A DNA stretch of 39,618 bases from positions 1-39,618 of the forward strand of contig CAJQPO010000095.1 of NCBI GenBank assembly GCA_905480225.1, given 5' to 3'. The notes below the pieces were generated by a model. It made no database searches and was not told the DNA's origin. It saw nothing but the letters and a program-made list of their open reading frames with translations. The translations under genes were made by a program, and so were the position numbers. This stretch comes from an uncultured Flavobacteriales bacterium (GTDB lineage Bacteria; Bacteroidota; Bacteroidia; Flavobacteriales_D; Parvicellaceae). Every line of letters starts with the position of its first letter. Position 1 is the stretch's first letter. This document shows, in pieces, positions 5,129 through 18,202 of the stretch.

Positions 5129-6124
5129 ATGGCAGAAGTAAAAGATGAGAAATTAAAAGCGTTGCAAGTGACGTTAGATCGACTTGACAAAACCTTTGGA
5201 AAAGGTACAGTTATGAAATTGGGGGATAATCCGATCAAGGATTTAGATGTCATTCCTTCAGGTTCTTTAACATTAGATTTGGCCTTAGGTGTGGGCGGTT
5301 TTCCTAAAGGACGGGTTGTTGAAATCTACGGACCTGAATCGTCTGGAAAAACAACATTGGCTATTCACGCGATTGCTGAAGTGCAAAAGCAAGGAGGTAT
5401 AGCTGCAATGGTAGATGCTGAGCATGCGTTTGATCAATTTTATGCAAAGTCCTTAGGTGTTGATGTGGATAATTTATTAATCTCACAACCGGATAATGGT
5501 GAACAAGCGCTAGAAATTGCAGACAACCTTATTCGTTCAGGTGCTATAGACTTGATAATTATAGATTCTGTAGCTGCCTTAACTCCTCGAGCTGAAATTG
5601 AAGGTGAAATGGGTGATTCACAAATGGGATTGCAAGCAAGGTTGATGTCTAAAGCATTGAGAAAATTGACTGCTTCGATTAGTAAAGCGGGCTGTTGTTG
5701 TATTTTCATTAATCAGCTCAGAGAAAAGATTGGTGTTATGTTTGGTAATCCTGAAACGACAACTGGAGGAAATGCGCTTAAGTTTTATGCTTCAGTAAGG
5801 TTAGATATTAGAAGGTCCAGTGCTATTAAAGATGGAGATAAAATTTTAGGTAATCGCACCAGAGTTAAAGTAGTCAAGAACAAAGTTGCCCCCCCATTTA
5901 AAAAAGCTGAATTTGACATTATGTATGGCAAGGGTATTTCTAAAGTTGGTGAAATTATTGATATCGGCGTCGAGCACGAAATCATAAAGAAAAGCGGTTC
6001 CTGGTTCAGTTATGAAGATACTAAGCTTGGGCAGGGAAGAGATGCTGTAAAATTATTGATTAGTGATAATCCAGAGTTGATGGAAGAGCTAGAACAAAAA
6101 ATTAAAGAGGCTATAGAAGCATAA
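5129..6124 (+). CDS. recA: Recombinase RecA
   Basis: RecA, the DNA-dependent ATPase that forms filaments on single-stranded DNA for homologous recombination and triggers LexA-type autocleavage where present. The 331 residues include Walker A GPESSGKT (68-75), the Walker B region [10 protein letters not shown], the [27 protein letters not shown] stretch spanning the L2 DNA-binding loop, and the C-terminal segment [18 protein letters not shown]. The acidic C-terminal tail is short. The ATG start gives a standard N-terminal helix. A strong intrinsic terminator lies 11 bases after the stop. I do not recognise an SOS-type operator in the 52-base upstream gap. Confidence 0.97.
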
Positions 6125-8066: not shown

Positions 8067-9020
8067 TCATTTAAATGCTGGACAATCGTATACTCGATTT
8101 CTTTGATTCCATTGCTGACCACCACCGCTTTTTCGTTTGTTGGTTTTAAAAATTAATACAAGTTCATGAGAACCACCATTGTATTTGCTCAAGCTCGATA
8201 TATTCATGTCATACGAGTAACCTATTCCAAAGGAACCTCTTTCAACTCCGAGTAATAATGCAACTGCGTCAAGGTATCGGTAAGATAATCCTGCCCACAT
8301 TTGGTGGTTGTATATGATTCGAGTATTTACATCAAAAGTCAAAGGAGCATTAAACATCATTCTCAACATACCAGAAGGTTCTATCGCTATGACACTTGTA
8401 GAGCTCCCAATTAAGTAACTACCTGTAACATATATTGCTCTATCAAGAGTGCTCGTGACAGGCAATGAAACTGCATATAGATCTGTTTTTGATTGGAGCA
8501 GATTATGAATAGAAACCCCAACATGATGATAGCCTCCATACCAATGCATTCCTGCTGATATGTCTGGTATTAATTCATTCGACGTGTATTGGTCCACAGT
8601 TATGTCATTAGGCTCTTCAGTAAATATTCTATTTTTATCCATTACAAATTGAGTAAAAGAACCTGCAATGCCAAATGAAAGTCGAGTTCCATATGATGTG
8701 GCTACTTGTGTGCTTAAGGCTGCCATCAGACCGGTTCTTCTAACTGGACCAGCTACATCATTGAATAAATAACCTCCAGCACCAATTTGTTTATGGACAT
8801 GACCGTGGTAGGAAAGGTGCTGTGCAGCGGGTGCTTCTCTAATACCAACCCACTGTCTGCGAAGGTCAATGGTGATTGGAGCATAATTTTTTGTTCCAGC
8901 AACTGCAGGATTAATGGCGAAGTCATTAAACATATATTGACTGTTCATTACAATTTGCTGTCCGTAATTGGGCATTACAGATAAAACTATCAGAATGACT
9001 ATATATGTTCCACGCAGCAT
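8067..9020 (-). CDS. PorP/SprF-family outer-membrane protein
   Basis: A 317-residue outer-membrane beta-barrel of the PorP/SprF family. Members act with the type IX secretion system and are often encoded next to the giant CHU_C-type protein they help to export or anchor. The signal peptide ends near YGQ. The mature start QQIVMNSQYMFNDFAINPAVAGTKNY is the family hallmark, followed by LRRQWVGIREAPAAQHLSYHGHV and a later YSYDMNISSLSKYNGGSHELVLIF end. The ATG at 9020 shares one base with the TGA of the upstream surface-protein gene (TGATG), implying translational coupling; a GTG one codon earlier is possible but less likely. The pairing with the Ig-repeat protein strongly suggests that protein is its dedicated partner. 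Confidence 0.93.
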   Translation of the reverse strand: MLRGTYIVILIVLSVMPNYGQQIVMNSQYMFNDFAINPAVAGTKNYAPITIDLRRQWVGIREAPAAQHLSYHGHVHKQIGAGGYLFNDVAGPVRRTGLMAALSTQVATSYGTRLSFGIAGSFTQFVMDKNRIFTEEPNDITVDQYTSNELIPDISAGMHWYGGYHHVGVSIHNLLQSKTDLYAVSLPVTSTLDRAIYVTGSYLIGSSTSVIAIEPSGMLRMMFNAPLTFDVNTRIIYNHQMWAGLSYRYLDAVALLLGVERGSFGIGYSYDMNISSLSKYNGGSHELVLIFKTNKRKSGGGQQWNQRNRVYDCPAFK

Positions 9021-12000
9021 CACCTGAGAATAATTATTGGACCACTTTGATTTATCGAACCATTGTTCAATTCCAAAACATAATAATAGGTGTCAGCAGG
9101 AAGTGGTTGTCCGAATGCATTCCCGTCCCATGCTATGTTGAGTTCTGTTGATTGCATTACAACTCTTCCCCACCTAGAGAATACTTTTAAATGGGCATCC
9201 TCGTATTTTGAAAAATCAAGGTTCCAGGTATCGTTTTTATTATCGCCATTTGGCGTAATTGTGTTGGGGATTTCAATACAAGACATCTGATCAGTTACTG
9301 ATATTTCTTCTGATATAGCCTGACAATCATCAGCATCTTTAACAACAATGTAGTAAGTTCCTTCCTGCACAAAGTAGCGTGGATTATCAATTTCACCATC
9401 AGACCAGTAAAAGTCATAGTATCCAGTACCTCCAGCAACAGAAGCGTCCAAAATAACACCACCTTCGGCACATGGAAGCTGTTCTATTTCGACGCTTACC
9501 GATAATTCAGATGGAAGGACGTTGACGAAATCAGATACCATACTCGTACAGCCATCATTGTTGATATACGTGTATGTAATTTGATGACTTCCTGTACCAA
9601 CTGAAATAGGGTCGAAAGAATTTCCAGTTACACCAGGGCCAGAATAGGTGCCACCTGATGGAATACCATTGGTTAGTGTAATCGATTCAGCAAGTCCACA
9701 AATATCATCGAATGGAACTAAATAAATGTGATTTTCTAGAACAGTGATTTGAATATTGACACAAGCAGTATTACCGCAAGCCCCGCCTTCGGCCCGCACA
9801 TAATAAGAAGTTGTAGCGGAAGGTGTCACCGTTATTGTTGGTCCTGTATTTATAGGAATTCCTGCACAACTATTTTCGTACCAAACCCAATTTGCTCCGG
9901 TAGAAAGGTATCCACCAACAATAGAAAGAATCGTACTCTCTCCTTCACAAAATCCATTATTACTTGCGGTGATGCCATTTGCAGGAAGTGAGCCATCTAT
10001 GACATCAACGGTCACTTCTTCGCAAGAAGTCATCCCACATGTACCAACTGCTGCAACATAATAAGTAGTTGTTTCTGATGGGGTTATACTAAGTGTGTCT
10101 CCAACACCTACGGGCACAGCACCGCATGATCCTGTATACCAAACCCATGTATAAGCTGGTGGTAGAGGGCTCCCAACTACGTATAAATCAGTTGTTTCAT
10201 TTGGGCAAAGTCCATTTGTCAAAACGTTAGCACTTGAAGGAGCCGGAACTCCTGCGCCAACGTCAATTGTAATTTGCACACAGTTAGAGTTGCCACAAGA
10301 ACCCTCTGCTCTTACAAAATAGGTAGTTGTTGCCGATGGTGCAACACTAATGGAATTACCAGAACCCAAGATTGCGCCGCCGCATGAACTGCTGTACCAT
10401 CTCCAGTTAGCTCCAGTTCCAAGTGATCCTCCCGAAACAGATAGTACTGCTGATTGGCCAAGGCAAATGGATGTTGTCGAAGTAATAATGGAAGACGGAT
10501 CTGTAGATAATTGATCGATATTAATGGTTACACTTGCGCAAGTGGTAGTTCCACAAATTCCTTCGGCTCTAACGAAGTAAATTGTTGGCGACGATGGATT
10601 GACGTTAATAGAATTTCCCGTACCAATAGTTGTTCCAAATCCACAGCCTCCCTCATACCAAAACCAATTATCACCTGTAGCCAGAGAGCCTCCAGAAACG
10701 GTTAAGTTTGAAATACCACCGGGGCAGACATTTAAATTCGTTGCATTTACAAATGTTGGCGCAGTAGAAATAGGATCAACAAGGATTGTTTTAGAAAAAC
10801 ACGTCGTTGTATTGCAGGGCCCCTCAGCTCGAACATAATAAGTCGTAGTTGTTGCAGGTGAAACAGTAATCGATGTACCAGAACCTTCATAAATACCACC
10901 ACAAGAATTACTGTACCACTCCCAATTTGCGCCTGGTCCTAAATACCCTCCAACGACATCTAAAGTAGCATTTCCACCAGGGCAAATACTTGATGCGCTC
11001 GAAGAAATGTTTCCTGCACTTGTGGATAAGTCGTCTACGGTTATCGTTGTGTTAACGCAAACTGTAGTGTTGCAAGTGCCCTCAGCTCGCACAAAATATG
11101 TCGTTGTAATTAATGGATTTACAGCAAGCGTAGGACCTGAACTAATAAAAGTTCCACCACAGGAGGTCGCATACCAATTCCAGCTCGCACCTGCTCCTAA
11201 ACTTCCTCCAGCAACTGACAATATGCTGAGGTCTCCAGGACAAACGGTAGAAGGTGAGCTAATTGCAGCAGCTGGAGCTGCAGAAAGGTTTTCAACAAGA
11301 ATTGTAATACTTACGCAGTTAGTTGTATTGCAAGTTCCTTCAGCTCTAACAAAATACGTTGTAGTTGAAGAAGGGCTCACCATTATTGAGCTACCGTTTC
11401 CAATTGCAGCTCCAGCTCCACAACCGCCGGAATACCAATACCAATCGGCACCAGTACCTAGAAATCCACCAGAAATAGTTAAGGTAGTTGGTAGACCTGC
11501 GCAAACAGTTGGGTTCGAAGCATTTAAGCTTGAGGCATCATTAGAATTAGTGTTTACATTGATGGTTAAAGCGGCTACCGCTGAAGTATCACAACCCTCA
11601 GCTCTCACAAAATAAGTAGTTGTAATTGACGGCGACACTCCTGGATACAACGTCGTTGCACTACTAAATACAGGTATCAAAACAGCACTAGTAGGATCAT
11701 TGGTGTACCACGTCCATAGACCTGAGGTGCCTAACGAACCTCCGCTGACCGTTAAATCTACATTGTCACCTTGGCAAATCGTCGTATTGGTTGCCGTAAT
11801 TCCAGCTGGTGAGCCTGTAGGTGTTTCAATTGTAATGATCTGGTTAACTGTTGACGTAGAATCACAATTTCCTTCTGCTCGTAGAAATACATTGGTGGTT
11901 ATAGAAGAATTCAATACAAATGGATCTCCGAAACCTAATAATGTTCCACCAAAATTTGGGTCGCCATTGTACCATGCCCAGGAAGCGCCAGTTCCTAGGG

Positions 12001-12949
12001 TTCCACCAGAAACATATAAGGTGGCTGAGCCAAGCCCACAAATTGAAGTTGGGTTCGCCACAATCGAAGAAGCGGATATCGATGGATCATCAATCAAAAC
12101 AGAAACGGTATTTGAATAGACTGTTGGGCAATTGGTAGATATAGCTGACCGCCTATAGCAAATATCTTGCGATGCTAGGGGTAGAGGAGTGTAAGAACTG
12201 GAATTAGCGGAAAATATATCAACAAAAGAACCAATGCATCCGATATCTTGCTGCCATTGATAAGTGATGTGTGGAGAAGTTCCCGCTGTTCCTGAAATAA
12301 CGTCCCCTAATGTAGACGGATTAGCACCCGGGCATACCGATTGGTCGCCATCAATTTGTCCTGGATCTACGGTTACGTATTCCCAATAAATTTCTAACTC
12401 ACAATAATAATCTTGATTTTGGAATTGATAAGTATTCCAGGTACATGGAGGATCATTAATGAAAACTGAATTGCCAGCGGGAGCCCTGGTATCGTGATTG
12501 TCATCACCGTCAATACACCAATTAGAAGCAAATGGGTTTAATTGAGTAGGATTAACATCGCAATCACTTCCGCATCCATCCTCCTCATGTCCTTCAATTT
12601 CTACAGAAATTTGGGATGCATCAGAATTTAAGATAGTACTGGCTCCTGTAAACCAATTATATGGAATATTTGGTCCTTGATTTGTTGCGCCCGTCCACCA
12701 TGCAGCATAAGGAGTTGTAGCATTAATACAACCTGTTGCTTGCCAAGTATTGATTGAACCAGGTGTTGTGCCATTATCACTAATCCAAATGTACCACGTG
12801 GGTTCTTGTTCACCTACTAATTCGGTTGCATCACCTTGCGCCATTAGTTGAGAGATACGCACTTGATAATTAATATTTTGAGCAACAAAGATGTGGGAGA
12901 CTGAAAGCAGCCCTATTATCAGAGAGAATGATTTAATCTTGAAACGCAT
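9020..12949 (-). CDS. Giant T9SS-secreted Ig-repeat surface protein with CHU_C C-terminal domain
   Basis: A 1309-residue secreted protein, predicted to be exported by the type IX system. From ATG 12949 (a TTG 42 bases upstream would only add a non-signal extension) there is a signal peptide of about 24 residues. A unique N-terminal region with several cysteines and an Ig/PKD-like segment near 196-287 follows. Next come nine tandem Ig-like units (289-1072, about 85-90 residues each) ending in Y[FY]VRAEG-type strands. After them are one further Ig-like domain (about 1073-1146, GTYSGPGV) and a SprB-like repeat (about 1151-1218, GGTGYYDFYWSDG). The C-terminus (about 1224-1309) is a gliding-motility-type CHU_C domain: PNTITPNGDNKNDTW, LKVFSRWGRVV, AWDGNAFGQPLPADTYYYVL. 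It is coupled to the PorP/SprF gene. Likely an adhesin; the ligand is unknown. Confidence 0.93.
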   Translation of the reverse strand: MRFKIKSFSLIIGLLSVSHIFVAQNINYQVRISQLMAQGDATELVGEQEPTWYIWISDNGTTPGSINTWQATGCINATTPYAAWWTGATNQGPNIPYNWFTGASTILNSDASQISVEIEGHEEDGCGSDCDVNPTQLNPFASNWCIDGDDNHDTRAPAGNSVFINDPPCTWNTYQFQNQDYYCELEIYWEYVTVDPGQIDGDQSVCPGANPSTLGDVISGTAGTSPHITYQWQQDIGCIGSFVDIFSANSSSYTPLPLASQDICYRRSAISTNCPTVYSNTVSVLIDDPSISASSIVANPTSICGLGSATLYVSGGTLGTGASWAWYNGDPNFGGTLLGFGDPFVLNSSITTNVFLRAEGNCDSTSTVNQIITIETPTGSPAGITATNTTICQGDNVDLTVSGGSLGTSGLWTWYTNDPTSAVLIPVFSSATTLYPGVSPSITTTYFVRAEGCDTSAVAALTINVNTNSNDASSLNASNPTVCAGLPTTLTISGGFLGTGADWYWYSGGCGAGAAIGNGSSIMVSPSSTTTYFVRAEGTCNTTNCVSITILVENLSAAPAAAISSPSTVCPGDLSILSVAGGSLGAGASWNWYATSCGGTFISSGPTLAVNPLITTTYFVRAEGTCNTTVCVNTTITVDDLSTSAGNISSSASSICPGGNATLDVVGGYLGPGANWEWYSNSCGGIYEGSGTSITVSPATTTTYYVRAEGPCNTTTCFSKTILVDPISTAPTFVNATNLNVCPGGISNLTVSGGSLATGDNWFWYEGGCGFGTTIGTGNSINVNPSSPTIYFVRAEGICGTTTCASVTINIDQLSTDPSSIITSTTSICLGQSAVLSVSGGSLGTGANWRWYSSSCGGAILGSGNSISVAPSATTTYFVRAEGSCGNSNCVQITIDVGAGVPAPSSANVLTNGLCPNETTDLYVVGSPLPPAYTWVWYTGSCGAVPVGVGDTLSITPSETTTYYVAAVGTCGMTSCEEVTVDVIDGSLPANGITASNNGFCEGESTILSIVGGYLSTGANWVWYENSCAGIPINTGPTITVTPSATTSYYVRAEGGACGNTACVNIQITVLENHIYLVPFDDICGLAESITLTNGIPSGGTYSGPGVTGNSFDPISVGTGSHQITYTYINNDGCTSMVSDFVNVLPSELSVSVEIEQLPCAEGGVILDASVAGGTGYYDFYWSDGEIDNPRYFVQEGTYYIVVKDADDCQAISEEISVTDQMSCIEIPNTITPNGDNKNDTWNLDFSKYEDAHLKVFSRWGRVVMQSTELNIAWDGNAFGQPLPADTYYYVLELNNGSINQSGPIIILR
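9734..12085 (-). repeat. Nine tandem Ig-like coding repeats
   Basis: Nine units of roughly 255-270 bases encode domains that share C-x-G-x(4-5)-L-x-V-x-GG-x-LG-x-G-x-W-x-WY near the start and TTTY[FY]VRAEG at the end. Units 3-7 and 9 carry a pair of cysteines after the last strand (C-x-T-T-x-C or a variant), and units 1-2 have only one. Protein similarity is high, but DNA has diverged (different codons for the same residues), so this is an old protein-level expansion, not a recent DNA amplification. Confidence 0.9.
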
Positions 12950-12964
12950 AAATAAAGTAGACCA

Positions 12965-12995
12965 TAAAAGTATATCATTATTTGAACACAATCAA
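12965..12995 (-). promoter_or_regulatory. Candidate promoter of the surface-protein/PorP operon
   Basis: On the minus strand, TTG (12995-12993) is followed after 20 bases by TACTTTTA (12972-12965), one mismatch from TAnnTTTG. The expected transcription start would fall about 10 bases before ATG 12949. The positions fit the Bacteroidota promoter pattern; no other candidate is closer. Confidence 0.4.
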
Positions 12996-13033: not shown

Positions 13034-13822
13034 TTAGCTAGTAAAGGCAGATATTTTTTGAAAATCATAAAGTGTTGTATCCAGCATATGTGAAGGGTGA
13101 ATATTTTTAAAAGAAGTAAAAACACTTTCAAGCCGTCCAGGAAACTTTTCTTCCCATTCATGAAGCATCTTTTTTGCAAGCTGTCTTTGCAAACCATCTT
13201 GAGAGCCACATAGATTGCAAGGGATAATTGGAAATTCTTTAAGCGCACTATACGCTTCAATATCCGATTCCTTGCAATAGGCTAATGGTCGAATGACAAT
13301 GTGCTTACCATTGTCGGTTTTAAATTTAGGAGGCATGGTTTCTATTTTTCCATTGAAAAATAAGTTTAGAAAAAAGGTTTCCAAGATGTCATCTCTATGA
13401 TGGCCAAGCGCAATTTTAGTTGCTCCTAATTCGCTTGCTGCTTGGTACAATGTTCCTCTGCGTAGTCTTGAACATAAACTACACATGGTTTTGCCAATAT
13501 CAATCTTGTCCAAAACAATACTATAAGTATCTTTTTCAATGATTTGATAATCAACTTGTAAATCATCTAAGTACGCAGGTAGAATGTGATCTGGATAATT
13601 AGGTTGTTTTTGGTTCAAGTGAACTGCAATAATGCTGAAATTAATATGAGGTGCATTTTGCATCGTGCTTAACAGATCAAGAAGGGTATAGCTGTCTTTA
13701 CCGCCGGATAGACAAACCATAATTTTATCACCTTCTTTAATCAATCCAAATTGCTCGTTGGCCTGCCAAACTTTTTTTCTCAGCTTTTTGGAAGAGATTT
13801 TTATGCGATTCTCAATGTCCAT
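13034..13822 (-). CDS. ttcA: tRNA 2-thiocytidine(32) synthetase TtcA-type
   Basis: A 262-residue PP-loop ATPase of the TtcA/TtuA family that thiolates cytidine 32 (or a related base) in tRNA. The PP-loop [12 protein letters not shown] (from residue 39) adenylates the base. [10 protein letters not shown] (Cys 114 and 117) and the later IPCNLCGSQ (Cys 202 and 205) provide the iron-sulphur and catalytic cysteines. The conserved [22 protein letters not shown] segment is present. The family length is about 260-310. The ATG at 13822 is preferred over a TTG 18 bases upstream because it gives the usual MDIENRIK-like start. It lies 27 bases after the end of the BNR protein gene in the same direction, so it may be read from that promoter. 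A tRNA-lysidine synthase is a less likely alternative because of the cysteine pattern. Confidence 0.9.
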
Positions 13823-13849
13823 TACCTGTAGTTGTATCAATTATCGCTG

Positions 13850-16659
13850 TTACTCTGTCTTCCAATTGGACCCTCTTCCAGGCGTATATGGCACGCCATG
13901 CTTTTCTAGTTCTTCTTCTAAGGCGGTGATTCCAGTTGATGAGGTCTTCAATTTCAATAGTAAAGGTTCAAATTCTTCTTTAGCAATTCTGTATCCTTCT
14001 TTTTGCGTATTTGTAGCAGATGTTGTGGTATACCAAAGCTGATAGACTACTGTTCCGATTCTTCCTGAAATACTAGGGTAAGTTTCAAATTCGCGTTTGG
14101 ATTTACTGCTATTACCAAATAATTTTGTTTCAATTTGGTTCAGTTCAGTTTCTAAGCTTTTGATTCGTGGCATCAGGTCTAACGGTACAGATGGATAGCT
14201 TTGGACGGCAGCTTTGATGTACTTTAATTGTGATGCTGATTCTGACAACAGCGCACCTGCACTTCTAACTCTTCTTCTTAATTCGGCGATTTGATTCTGG
14301 AATTCAAGCAGAGAAGCTTTATTGGTGGCTAGTAAAGATTGATTATTGAGTGGTTCAATATTGAATGGTACGGGTTCATTTAATAATTGCAATTTTCCAT
14401 TGGTTGCTTGGTGAAGTTCTATGGTGTAGGAACCAGGCAAAGCCATTGGACCATCATCTTTCATGCTGTAACGACCCGTTGAACTTTCTTTTAATTGTAT
14501 CGGATTGGTGGATGCCAATCTAAAATTCCAGTTGATTCTGTTTATTCCTGACTTTGGTCCTGTTTTGATTTTTCTTACCGCATTTCCGTCTGAATCTCTA
14601 ATGATAAATAGTAGGTAAGGCTTTTCTTCTTGGTCTTCCGAAATAATTTCTGTAATACTGGGATAAAAGACATCTTTCCCCTGTTTTACTAATAGTTTCT
14701 CTTTTTCTTGTCTCAAATCTTTGAGACTCTTCGCCTTTGATTTAATGTAATACGTGAAGGTTACTCCAAATTCTGGATTTGGTGCTGTATAGTAGCTTTC
14801 TCCTTGGGCTGACTTCCCTCGTAGACCAATTGGATTAGTCGGGATATACATGAGTCCATTTTTGACAGTGAAAATGTGAGATTCTTTTTTTAGTATTTGT
14901 GTTGTTATTTCTCTTAACGGGGCGTAATTGTCTAAGACATAAAACCCTCGACCAAAAGAGGCGACAACAAGGTCACTTTCTCTTTCTTGTATGGCCAAAT
15001 CTCTGGCTGCAATTGTTGGTATGCCACTTTTTAATTGTATCCACTGTTTGCCATCATCAATAGAGAAAAACACGCCAAATTCAGTCCCCACAAATAATAA
15101 ATGGCCATTTACATGATCTTCAACAATACTAAAAACAGAGCCTCTGTCGGGAAGGTTAGATGCAATTGAAGTCCACGTTTTTCCTTTATCATTTGATTGG
15201 AATAAATAGGGTTTGAAATCACCATTTTTATGATTGTTGAAGGCCGCAAAGACAACATTTTCATTATGTTTTGAGGCAATGATTGCATTCACATAAGTGT
15301 TGGGTGGAACTCCTTCAATTTTTTCAATTTTCATCCAGCTCTCACCGTTGTTTTCCGATAAGTGGATTAATCCGTCATCTGTTCCAGCAAACAATACACC
15401 TTCTTGTAAAGGTGATTCATCAAAAGCAACGATATTCCCGTAAATAGAGGTTGATTTATTTTTCATAACTGCATCCATTCCCCAAACACGTCCCATTACT
15501 TTCAGTTTATTTCGATCTATTTGTCTAGAAAGATCACCACTTATAACACTCCATGTATTTCCTCGGTCATCACTTCTAAAAACCTTATTGGCACAGAAAT
15601 ACAATCTTTGATTATTGTGTGGACTAATTAATAGCGGAGCGTCCCAATTCCACCGATAAGGCGCCTCGTCTTTTTCTGGCATTGGCTGAATGCCAATCTT
15701 CTCTCCACTTTTCTTGTCATAACGCACTAACCAACCGTATTGAGCTTGTGCATAAACTATATTCGGATTTGTAGGGTCAATTTGTGACTCAAAACCATCA
15801 CCACCATTTGTAATGTACCAATCTGAATTAATAATTCCTGCATTGTTTAAAGTTCGTGAAGGGCCTCCCATTGAATTATTATCTTGAGTGCCTCCATAAA
15901 TGTTGTAAAATGGTTCGGCATTATCTACAGCAACTCGATAAAATTGTGTAATCGGTAAATTGGGTTTGAAATGCCAATTTTTAGCATGGTCCCAAGTTTC
16001 GTATAAACCACCATCGCATCCAACAATCCAATGTTCGGTGTTGTTTGGGTCTATCCAAATGCAATGATTATCAACATGTTTATGTTTCTCTCCAGTTTTT
16101 TTAAATGTTTTACCACCATCTTCAGAATGGTGCAGCCATGTATTCATACTGAATATTTTATCCCTGTCGTATGGGTCACAAACAATTTCTTGATAATAAT
16201 TACCGGATGTTTGGTAAGCACTCCTTTTTGTCCAGCTCGCTCCTCTGTCTGTACTTCGATAGAATCCGCCGGTTGAACCCGATGCTTTTATAATGGCATA
16301 AACATAGTCTGGGTCTGCAGGTGAAATGGCCAATCCAATTCGACCTATTTGCCCCGATGGAAGACCATTTGATAGTTTTTTCCAAGATTTACCACCGTCA
16401 TCACTTTTATGAATAGCACTTTCTGGTCCGCCGTCTATGTAGGTCCAAACATGCCTTCTTCTTTGGTGAGCTGCTGCATATATGATTTCTGGATTTCTAG
16501 GATCTATGATTAGGTCATTAATCCCAGTATTTTCTGAGATTGACAACACTTTTATCCAGGTATTGCCTCCGTCAGTAGTTTTGTAAACGCCCCTTTCTCC
16601 ACCAGCTGACCAAAGAGGGCCATAAGCAGCTACGTAAACTATTTTTTCGTTTTTTGGAT
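13850..16659 (-). pseudogene. Sortilin-like BNR/Asp-box repeat protein, main C-terminal part of a frameshifted gene
   Basis: The larger part of a secreted beta-propeller protein, usually annotated in Bacteroidota as a 'VPS10/sortilin-domain or BNR glycosyl hydrolase'-like protein. In its own frame the reading runs without a stop from about 16659 to 13850; the first Met is at 16549. At least seven Asp-box/BNR motifs are visible (KSDDGGKSW, RSTDRGASW, HSEDGGKTF, RSDDRGNTW, LSENNGESW, QSNDKGKTW, FSIDDGKQW), forming two propellers. A linker near SHIFTVKNGLMYIPTNP leads to an Ig-like and helical C-terminal region ending HGVPYTPGRGSNW, as in intact relatives. No T9SS sorting domain is visible at the end. 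Joined to the N-terminal part, restoring one base gives 1094 residues. Catalytic activity is not established; the glycosidase label in databases may be historical. Confidence 0.85.
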
Positions 16660-17133
16660 GAATATAATTTTACCAATATGCTCTGACGTTTTTAATCCCA
16701 TATTCTTGAAAGTCTTACCACCATCTTCACTTTTATAAACACCATCACCATATGCAACACTTCTTTGATTATTGTTTTCACCAGAACCAATCCAGATCAG
16801 GTTTTCATTTGTAGGCGAAATGGCGATACAACCAATGGAATAAGAATTTTCATTATCAAAAATAGGTTCATACGTATTCCCGTTATTCTTAGTCTTCCAA
16901 ACACCGCCAGATGCAACAGCAATATAATATTCAAAGGGGTTTTTTGAATTAACAGCTATGTCTGCAACTCGACCTGAAGTGAAAGCAGGTCCTACATTTC
17001 GAAATTTCATCCCCGAGAAAGTAGTGGAGTTTAATTGTTCCGAAGTATTGGAAGGGACTTTGTCTTTTTTTTGGCTGAATGAAACAGAACAAAAAAGAAT
17101 TATTAGGGTAAAAGTAAAGAGAGAAGACTTCAT
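16639..17133 (-). pseudogene. N-terminal part of the frameshifted sortilin-like BNR protein
   Basis: The first 164-residue reading frame of the same gene. It has a signal peptide (about 20 residues, ending VSFSQ), then GMKFRNVGPAFTSGRVADIAV, the standard opening of this family, and the first propeller blades (VWKTKNNGNTY, VYKSEDGGKTF). After HIGKII the frame runs into FIQKTKK and a stop, while the -1 frame reads HPKNEKIVYVAAYGPLW, the expected continuation. The overlap between 16639 and about 16660 is therefore the frameshift site. A single base missing in the ATTATATT stretch would explain it. Flanking runs of six A could also mean a sequencing error. An exact -7 promoter element lies about 47 bases before the ATG. 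Confidence 0.85.
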
Positions 17134-17179: not shown

Positions 17180-17210
17180 CAAATATATTAATCGATTTGT
17201 AATAATGCAC
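17180..17210 (-). promoter_or_regulatory. Candidate promoter of the BNR protein gene
   Basis: An exact minus-strand TATATTTG (17187-17180) matches the Bacteroidota -7 consensus, with a weak GTG at the -33 position 20 bases upstream (17210-17208). It would give a leader of about 40 bases before ATG 17133. An intact promoter argues against long-term decay of the frameshifted gene. Confidence 0.5.
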
Positions 17211-17245: not shown

Positions 17246-18202
17246 TTGAATAATGCTATTATTTTTGTATTTGTGAATCAAAATGAGTTCAAACAATATC
17301 CACCAAAGCCTGAATTGAAATCTGATAAAGTACAATTAAGGAATTCTATTGCAAAAGTAGGTGTTTTCATTGTGCTGTTTTATTTTCTATCAGGGGGGAG
17401 TATAGACACAGTTCTTGCTATTCTGATTATACTAATGATTCATGAGCTTGGCCATTTAACTGCGATGAAAATTTTTAAAACGAAAGACGATTCAATTTTC
17501 TTTTTTCCAGTATTTAGTGGTGCTGTCGAGCCCCAAGAACCTTTAGTCAGTCAGAAGAAACGCATCATAACATTATTGTCTGGACCTTTGCCAGGAGTTG
17601 TTTTGGGTATAATTCTTATGTCTCATGCTTTTTCTATAGAAAATGAAGTTTTATCTATAGTGGGCCAGGCTTTTATCTTCGTCAATCTGATTAATTTATT
17701 GCCTTTTGATTCAATGGATGGCGGCAAATTGACGGATGCATTTTTTCTTTTATTCAAAGAGCAGATTAAGTTAATATTTCTCTCTTTGGTGGCGCTTTTG
17801 TTTGCTTGGGCGGCTTTTTACAATCTCACCATGGGTGTATTTGCCATTTTTATTGGAATGCGAATTTATTCGATGATTAGAGCGCAAAAATTGAGGGTTG
17901 AGCTTCTGAAAAATGTAAGCGTAGATTTAAGTAAAACGTATCAAGATATTTCGGATCAAGAGTACTGGGAAATTCGCAAGTATTTATTAGAACAATTGCC
18001 AAAAACACCTATTAATCCCGATAGCTATGAGCCATTTGTTAATGAGAATTTATTAATTAATCAAGTGAAATCTCTCATGAAAAGTCCAATACAACTTGAT
18101 TTAAGAGTAGGTCAAAAAGTAATTTTATTTGGCTTGTGGTTTCTTGGAATTGTAATCCCAATTTGGTTTATTTTTTCTAATCTCGATCAATTAATTAATT
18201 GA
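17246..18202 (+). CDS. M50-type site-2 membrane metalloprotease
   Basis: A polytopic intramembrane zinc protease of the M50/S2P family, 318 residues from the TTG start. The zinc-binding HELGH (residues 66-70) lies inside the transmembrane helix LAILIILMIHELGHLTAM. The third ligand region is LPFDSMDGGKL (about 152-161), with an Asn-rich NLINLLPF before it, in the usual order. Further hydrophobic segments lie near residues 36-50, 110-127, 172-200 and at the C-terminus (about 294-312). The start is uncertain: TTG 17246 or GTG 17273 in frame; an exact TATTTTTG promoter-like motif at 17260-17267 would favour GTG. No PDZ domain is visible. The next gene, a TonB-like protein, starts inside its stop codon (TTGA overlap). 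The substrate is unknown; regulated cleavage of an anti-sigma or envelope protein is typical for the family. Confidence 0.82.
   Translation: MNNAIIFVFVNQNEFKQYPPKPELKSDKVQLRNSIAKVGVFIVLFYFLSGGSIDTVLAILIILMIHELGHLTAMKIFKTKDDSIFFFPVFSGAVEPQEPLVSQKKRIITLLSGPLPGVVLGIILMSHAFSIENEVLSIVGQAFIFVNLINLLPFDSMDGGKLTDAFFLLFKEQIKLIFLSLVALLFAWAAFYNLTMGVFAIFIGMRIYSMIRAQKLRVELLKNVSVDLSKTYQDISDQEYWEIRKYLLEQLPKTPINPDSYEPFVNENLLINQVKSLMKSPIQLDLRVGQKVILFGLWFLGIVIPIWFIFSNLDQLIN

Follow-up and report, generated by a model that had tools for sequence, protein, structure and literature searches.

The window, the whole stretch of 39,618 nucleotides analysed here, was contig C95 of a draft genome (G000; 2.76 Mb, 129 contigs, 96% complete). 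An Asp-box gene on its minus strand was found in two pieces. The upstream piece (16639..17133, minus strand) was a frame of 164 codons, which ran from an ATG at 17133 to a TAG at 16641–16639 and ended in the residues HIGKIIFIQKTKK. It contained two Asp-box-like motifs and began with an N-terminal hydrophobic stretch that, judged by eye, looks like a putative signal peptide. The downstream piece (13850..16660, minus strand) was read in the −1 register, which gave HPKNEKIVYVAAYGPLW from base 16660 and stayed open for 936 codons to a stop at 13850; it carried eight Asp-box-like motifs and represented most of the propeller protein. This register comprised 939 open codons in total, compared with 936 from HPK, and it opened just three codons before HPK. 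Any shift between the two frames must thus fall between that point and the stop.

The frame-change site (16658..16672, minus strand) had one base fewer than the sister genome G002, and BLASTN against G002 placed the missing base at ~16664. The frame translations and this alignment together confirmed the single-base frameshift that the initial annotation had reported at 16639–16680. Genome G002 was the nearest relative, with 94% protein identity over the downstream piece. The DNA of the two genomes was 91% identical over 3.7 kb and differed by two one-base gaps, the second of which was at 13845, in the short spacer ahead of the next gene. The G002 gene had one base more at the break site and was open in a single frame for 1094 codons, counted from its ATG, the same length as had been predicted for the window gene (1094 residues) if one base was restored.

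The missing base was located within an ATT-repeat stretch that precedes two runs of six A, and no run of at least three identical bases was found there. The two six-A runs (16655–16650 and 16647–16642, minus strand) were directly before the premature stop at 16641–16639. The first run was also present in G002. The second, which abutted the stop, was absent from G002, whose sequence differs at this position. A sequencing error near the two six-A runs had been suggested earlier; the runs were indeed present, but the missing base was outside them, in the ATT-repeat stretch, so they give no homopolymer-error explanation.

The split gene was flanked by a divergent M50-family peptidase gene (17246..18202, plus strand; 41.6 bits, cut-off 27.2), and the next gene downstream belonged to the PP-loop ATPase family (13034..13840, minus strand; 59.5 bits, cut-off 27). 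At 8067–12991 of the window (minus strand), the gene for a large Ig_7 protein adjoined a PorP/SprF gene; the Ig_7 protein carried a type IX secretion signal domain (CHU_C). The pairing of a type IX signal-domain protein with a PorP/SprF gene is known from Bacteroidota. A promoter-like octamer, TATATTTG, was located at 17180..17187 on the minus strand. The initial annotation had described it as an exact −7 promoter element (TANNTTTG, 17187–17180). The octamer was present and identical in G002, but its pattern had 46 exact matches in the window vs. 52.7 expected from shuffles. At this chance frequency, it is by itself no evidence for an intact promoter.

The downstream piece matched Sortilin-Vps10 (Pfam PF15902) with 94.3 bits, above the gathering score of 33, which agreed with the earlier description of the gene as sortilin-like. 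The upstream piece alone reached 23.7 bits and was under this cut-off. The best NCBIfam model, glycosyl_F510_1955, scored 118 bits, which was below its cut-off of 175. The Asp-box (S-X-D-X-G-X-T-W) is described in propellers of sialidases, GH74 enzymes and Vps10 receptors in the part of PMC2716378 used here. With a loose pattern, ten Asp-box-like motifs were found across both pieces, and the break was positioned between the second and the third, within the repeats. A fragment of 164 residues broken inside the repeats would probably be too short for a propeller domain. The solved relatives were distant by sequence; the best was 3b7f (E 7.4e-9), and 5jwz and four more were also found.

The gene was searched for in 60 genomes, the window's own included, with a match threshold of E 0.001. 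Among the matches listed, a full-length uninterrupted copy was found in 27 of the 60 genomes, with stop-to-stop frames of 1079–1170 codons and no internal stop. Both other members of the genus in the search, G001 and G002, carried a full-length copy. Ten of the 60 genomes had no match at E 0.001 or better among the matches listed, and some of these ten genomes were incomplete. The gene fragments in G014, G028, and G052 were truncated at contig ends. No second intact copy was found in the assembly of the window's own genome, where the next best match had 38% identity to the downstream piece and 41% to the upstream piece. Two other copies also appeared to be interrupted. Locus L088 (G013:C1:317000-322500), from a relative in another genus of the family, consisted of three collinear pieces in three frames, possibly an independent loss or errors in the G013 assembly. 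A more distant copy, L092 (G050:C102, ~5545–5550 of the contig), apparently consisted of two frames, of 1003 and 124 codons, with the split close to its end.

When the same codons were compared in the relatives, as had been proposed with the initial annotation, the gene was intact. Directly past the site, the relatives read [IV][HDS]P, and the proline was kept in all 30 usable aligned rows. These rows were derived from 32 loci, from which L047 was omitted by the length filter and L046 was dropped because its longest frame was another gene; they included one identical pair, L025 and L043. The correct frame of L046 also showed HP, in a comparison that listed motif-fitting frames only.

The two pieces were compared separately with G002, and differences were placed on branches with the help of G001 (75% identical); 14 upstream and 86 downstream differences were left without assignment. 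In the downstream piece, the window branch had 27 nonsynonymous and 63 synonymous changes, distributed as 12/12/66 over the codon positions (pN/pS 0.124). The G002 branch had 27 nonsynonymous and 50 synonymous changes (pN/pS 0.156), and the difference between the branches was not significant (Fisher p = 0.51). In the upstream piece, the window branch had nine nonsynonymous and 11 synonymous changes, and its pN/pS of 0.244 was higher than that downstream, but not significantly (p = 0.20). If the window branch had been fully neutral, so few nonsynonymous changes would be expected with a probability of ~1e-21; the upper bound on its neutral share was 0.03–0.10, depending on the baseline and confidence level. 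Relaxed constraint after the break, sought by branch-wise pN/pS, was thus not found (0.124 vs. 0.156), and the downstream piece showed no measurable loss of constraint, in line with the earlier view that the rest of the gene looks intact. An old pseudogene was rejected on these counts. The lack of relaxed constraint, as read from the substitution pattern, excludes a long-decaying pseudogene, but not a new one. Since constraint was unbroken downstream, the break is either very recent or absent from the cell.

The quality of the assembly was assessed by aligning sampled stretches of G000 and G002 (69.5 kb, then 137 kb, the latter being summed alignment lengths). The test took those G002 frames that were 100 aa or longer and had a counterpart of ≥70% identity in the sampled stretches of the window's genome. 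There were 113 such frames, of which 104 were covered at ≥95%, four at 85–95%, and five below. The five poorly covered frames were the split gene, one that was truncated where a sampled stretch ended, and three that lay opposite longer frames. The split gene was the sole one of the 113 sampled frames seen broken by a frameshift, although shifts near frame ends could escape this comparison. In the reverse direction, 106 of 114 G000 frames were covered at ≥95%, two at 85–95%, and six below; judged by coordinates, five of the six were read as edge cases, and the remaining one, L063_3638, differed from its partner in both start and end. Frame-changing gaps within frames, inspected by eye in the 69.5 kb sample, were mostly compensated nearby or located at frame ends. 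With the split gene as the only frame in the sample seen to be frameshifted, the sampled part of the assembly does not seem noisy in indels. A noisy assembly with many indels was unsupported in the sampled alignment and was rejected as a candidate.

Here, two explanations account for most of the weight: a real, very recent one-base mutation, or an isolated error of the consensus, with the organism itself carrying an undamaged gene. That one or the other applies, with no programmed device, is very probable when the two are taken together, and this outcome bears out the earlier reading of the site as a recent event or a sequencing error, given the intact relatives and the lack of measurable constraint loss downstream. 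The weighing of the two against each other is a matter of judgement. We lean slightly toward the real mutation on the sequence comparisons, and the consensus error is a serious contender at somewhat under an even chance. Intact copies are found among the relatives, including G001 and G002, and the frame is disrupted relative to these orthologues, which counts for a real deletion. The consensus error is favoured by the missing sign of relaxed constraint downstream, by the split gene being the only event of its kind in the sample, and by the draft state of the genome (129 contigs); a break too young for visible decay looks identical to an error, which counts against the real deletion. Homopolymer runs are the usual place where indel-biased technologies fail. 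Against an error, the missing base was outside such runs, and a clear split by a shift was seen in none of the other frames of the sampled stretches. The low indel noise and the position of the missing base outside any run of at least three identical bases give a slight tilt to the real mutation, which does not settle the question. By the real-mutation reading, a single-base deletion, present in the cell's DNA as well as in the consensus, would very recently have broken this sortilin/Vps10-like Asp-box propeller gene in the window's lineage. Translation would then stop after 157 native and seven altered residues, and because the fragment would be too short for a propeller, the result would be a null allele. 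The gene may be dispensable, as suggested by the ten of 60 genomes without a match among the matches listed and by the three-piece copy in G013.

Two explanations by recoding were given little weight. In the first, a real shift is partly rescued by slippage of RNA polymerase or of the ribosome on one of the two six-A runs, so that some full-length protein with a few altered residues is made. The shift and the stop are indeed separated by two six-A runs, and 0.5% of the 30-base stretches of the gene contain such a pair, but this one was picked out after the fact. The second run is absent from G002, the downstream constraint is unbroken, and poly(A) rescue of frameshifted genes has been described in Buchnera and Blochmannia (PMC3017870, as far as its available part goes). 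In Blochmannia, according to the same part of that paper, the indels occurred inside poly(A)/poly(T) tracts, and the genomes were rich in coding tracts of nine or more. An indel inside a long homopolymer tract was not found in the window gene, where the runs were only six long and the indel was outside any run. The rate of insertion during transcription increases exponentially as runs become longer, and no frame-restoring transcription error was observed in that study, according to the available part of PMC5574713. Most known cases of corrective frameshifting are mitochondrial, as stated in the accessible part of a review (PMC5009743). The first run coexists with an intact frame in G002. It had been argued with the initial annotation that slippage on the A-runs would produce FIQ and not the expected HP, and the alignment agreed: the slipped product would read FIQ where the relatives have [IV][HDS]P, with proline in 30 of 30 rows. 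Partial rescue is thus considered improbable. Slightly less probable again is a real frameshift that would be tolerated in a bacterial genome of ordinary size because the two runs slip often enough to yield sufficient full-length protein and keep the constraint in place.

In the other recoding explanation, programmed ribosomal −1 frameshifting would make two products from one gene. In its favour, the downstream frame is under constraint and is read in the −1 register. However, all 27 full-length copies among the matches listed in the 60 genomes were single frames, so that no shift conserved among the relatives was found, and the shift would need to fall between the third codon before HPK and the stop. 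The stretch open in both frames contained no zero-frame slippery heptamer (X XXY YYZ); the upstream piece had three of them, at codons 22, 64, and 65. The initial annotation had not favoured a programmed shift, and with the relatives intact and no shift site conserved, neither do we, rating its chance as very remote. As a candidate it was rejected, since the sister genome has a single frame, there is no conservation, and the site has no heptamer.

The cause is ordinary: either one base was lost very recently or the sequence carries an isolated error, in a gene that many relatives keep. Little follows beyond annotation: in this assembly, the gene should be marked as split rather than recorded as two proteins. 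If the deletion is real, the window would offer a snapshot at the moment of gene loss, in a gene that ten of the 60 genomes seem to lack among the matches listed.

In comparison with known systems, the gene resembles Asp-box propellers of the sortilin/Vps10 type (PF15902; PMC2716378, in its available part) in the 94.3-bit match of its downstream piece and in its ten Asp-box-like motifs; it differs in that the solved relatives of its putative propeller are distant by sequence and the best NCBIfam model is matched below its cut-off. The cases of poly(A) slippage in Blochmannia and Buchnera, as presented in the available part of PMC3017870, share with the window gene the A-runs near the shift and the lack of accelerated evolution downstream, whereas the indel outside the runs, the run length of six, and a slipped product that mismatches the family set the window gene apart. 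From recent bacterial frameshift pseudogenes, it differs in having no measurable decay yet and in that an assembly error remains the alternative. It is like them in that its frame is broken relative to the orthologues and its pieces are still collinear and recognisable.
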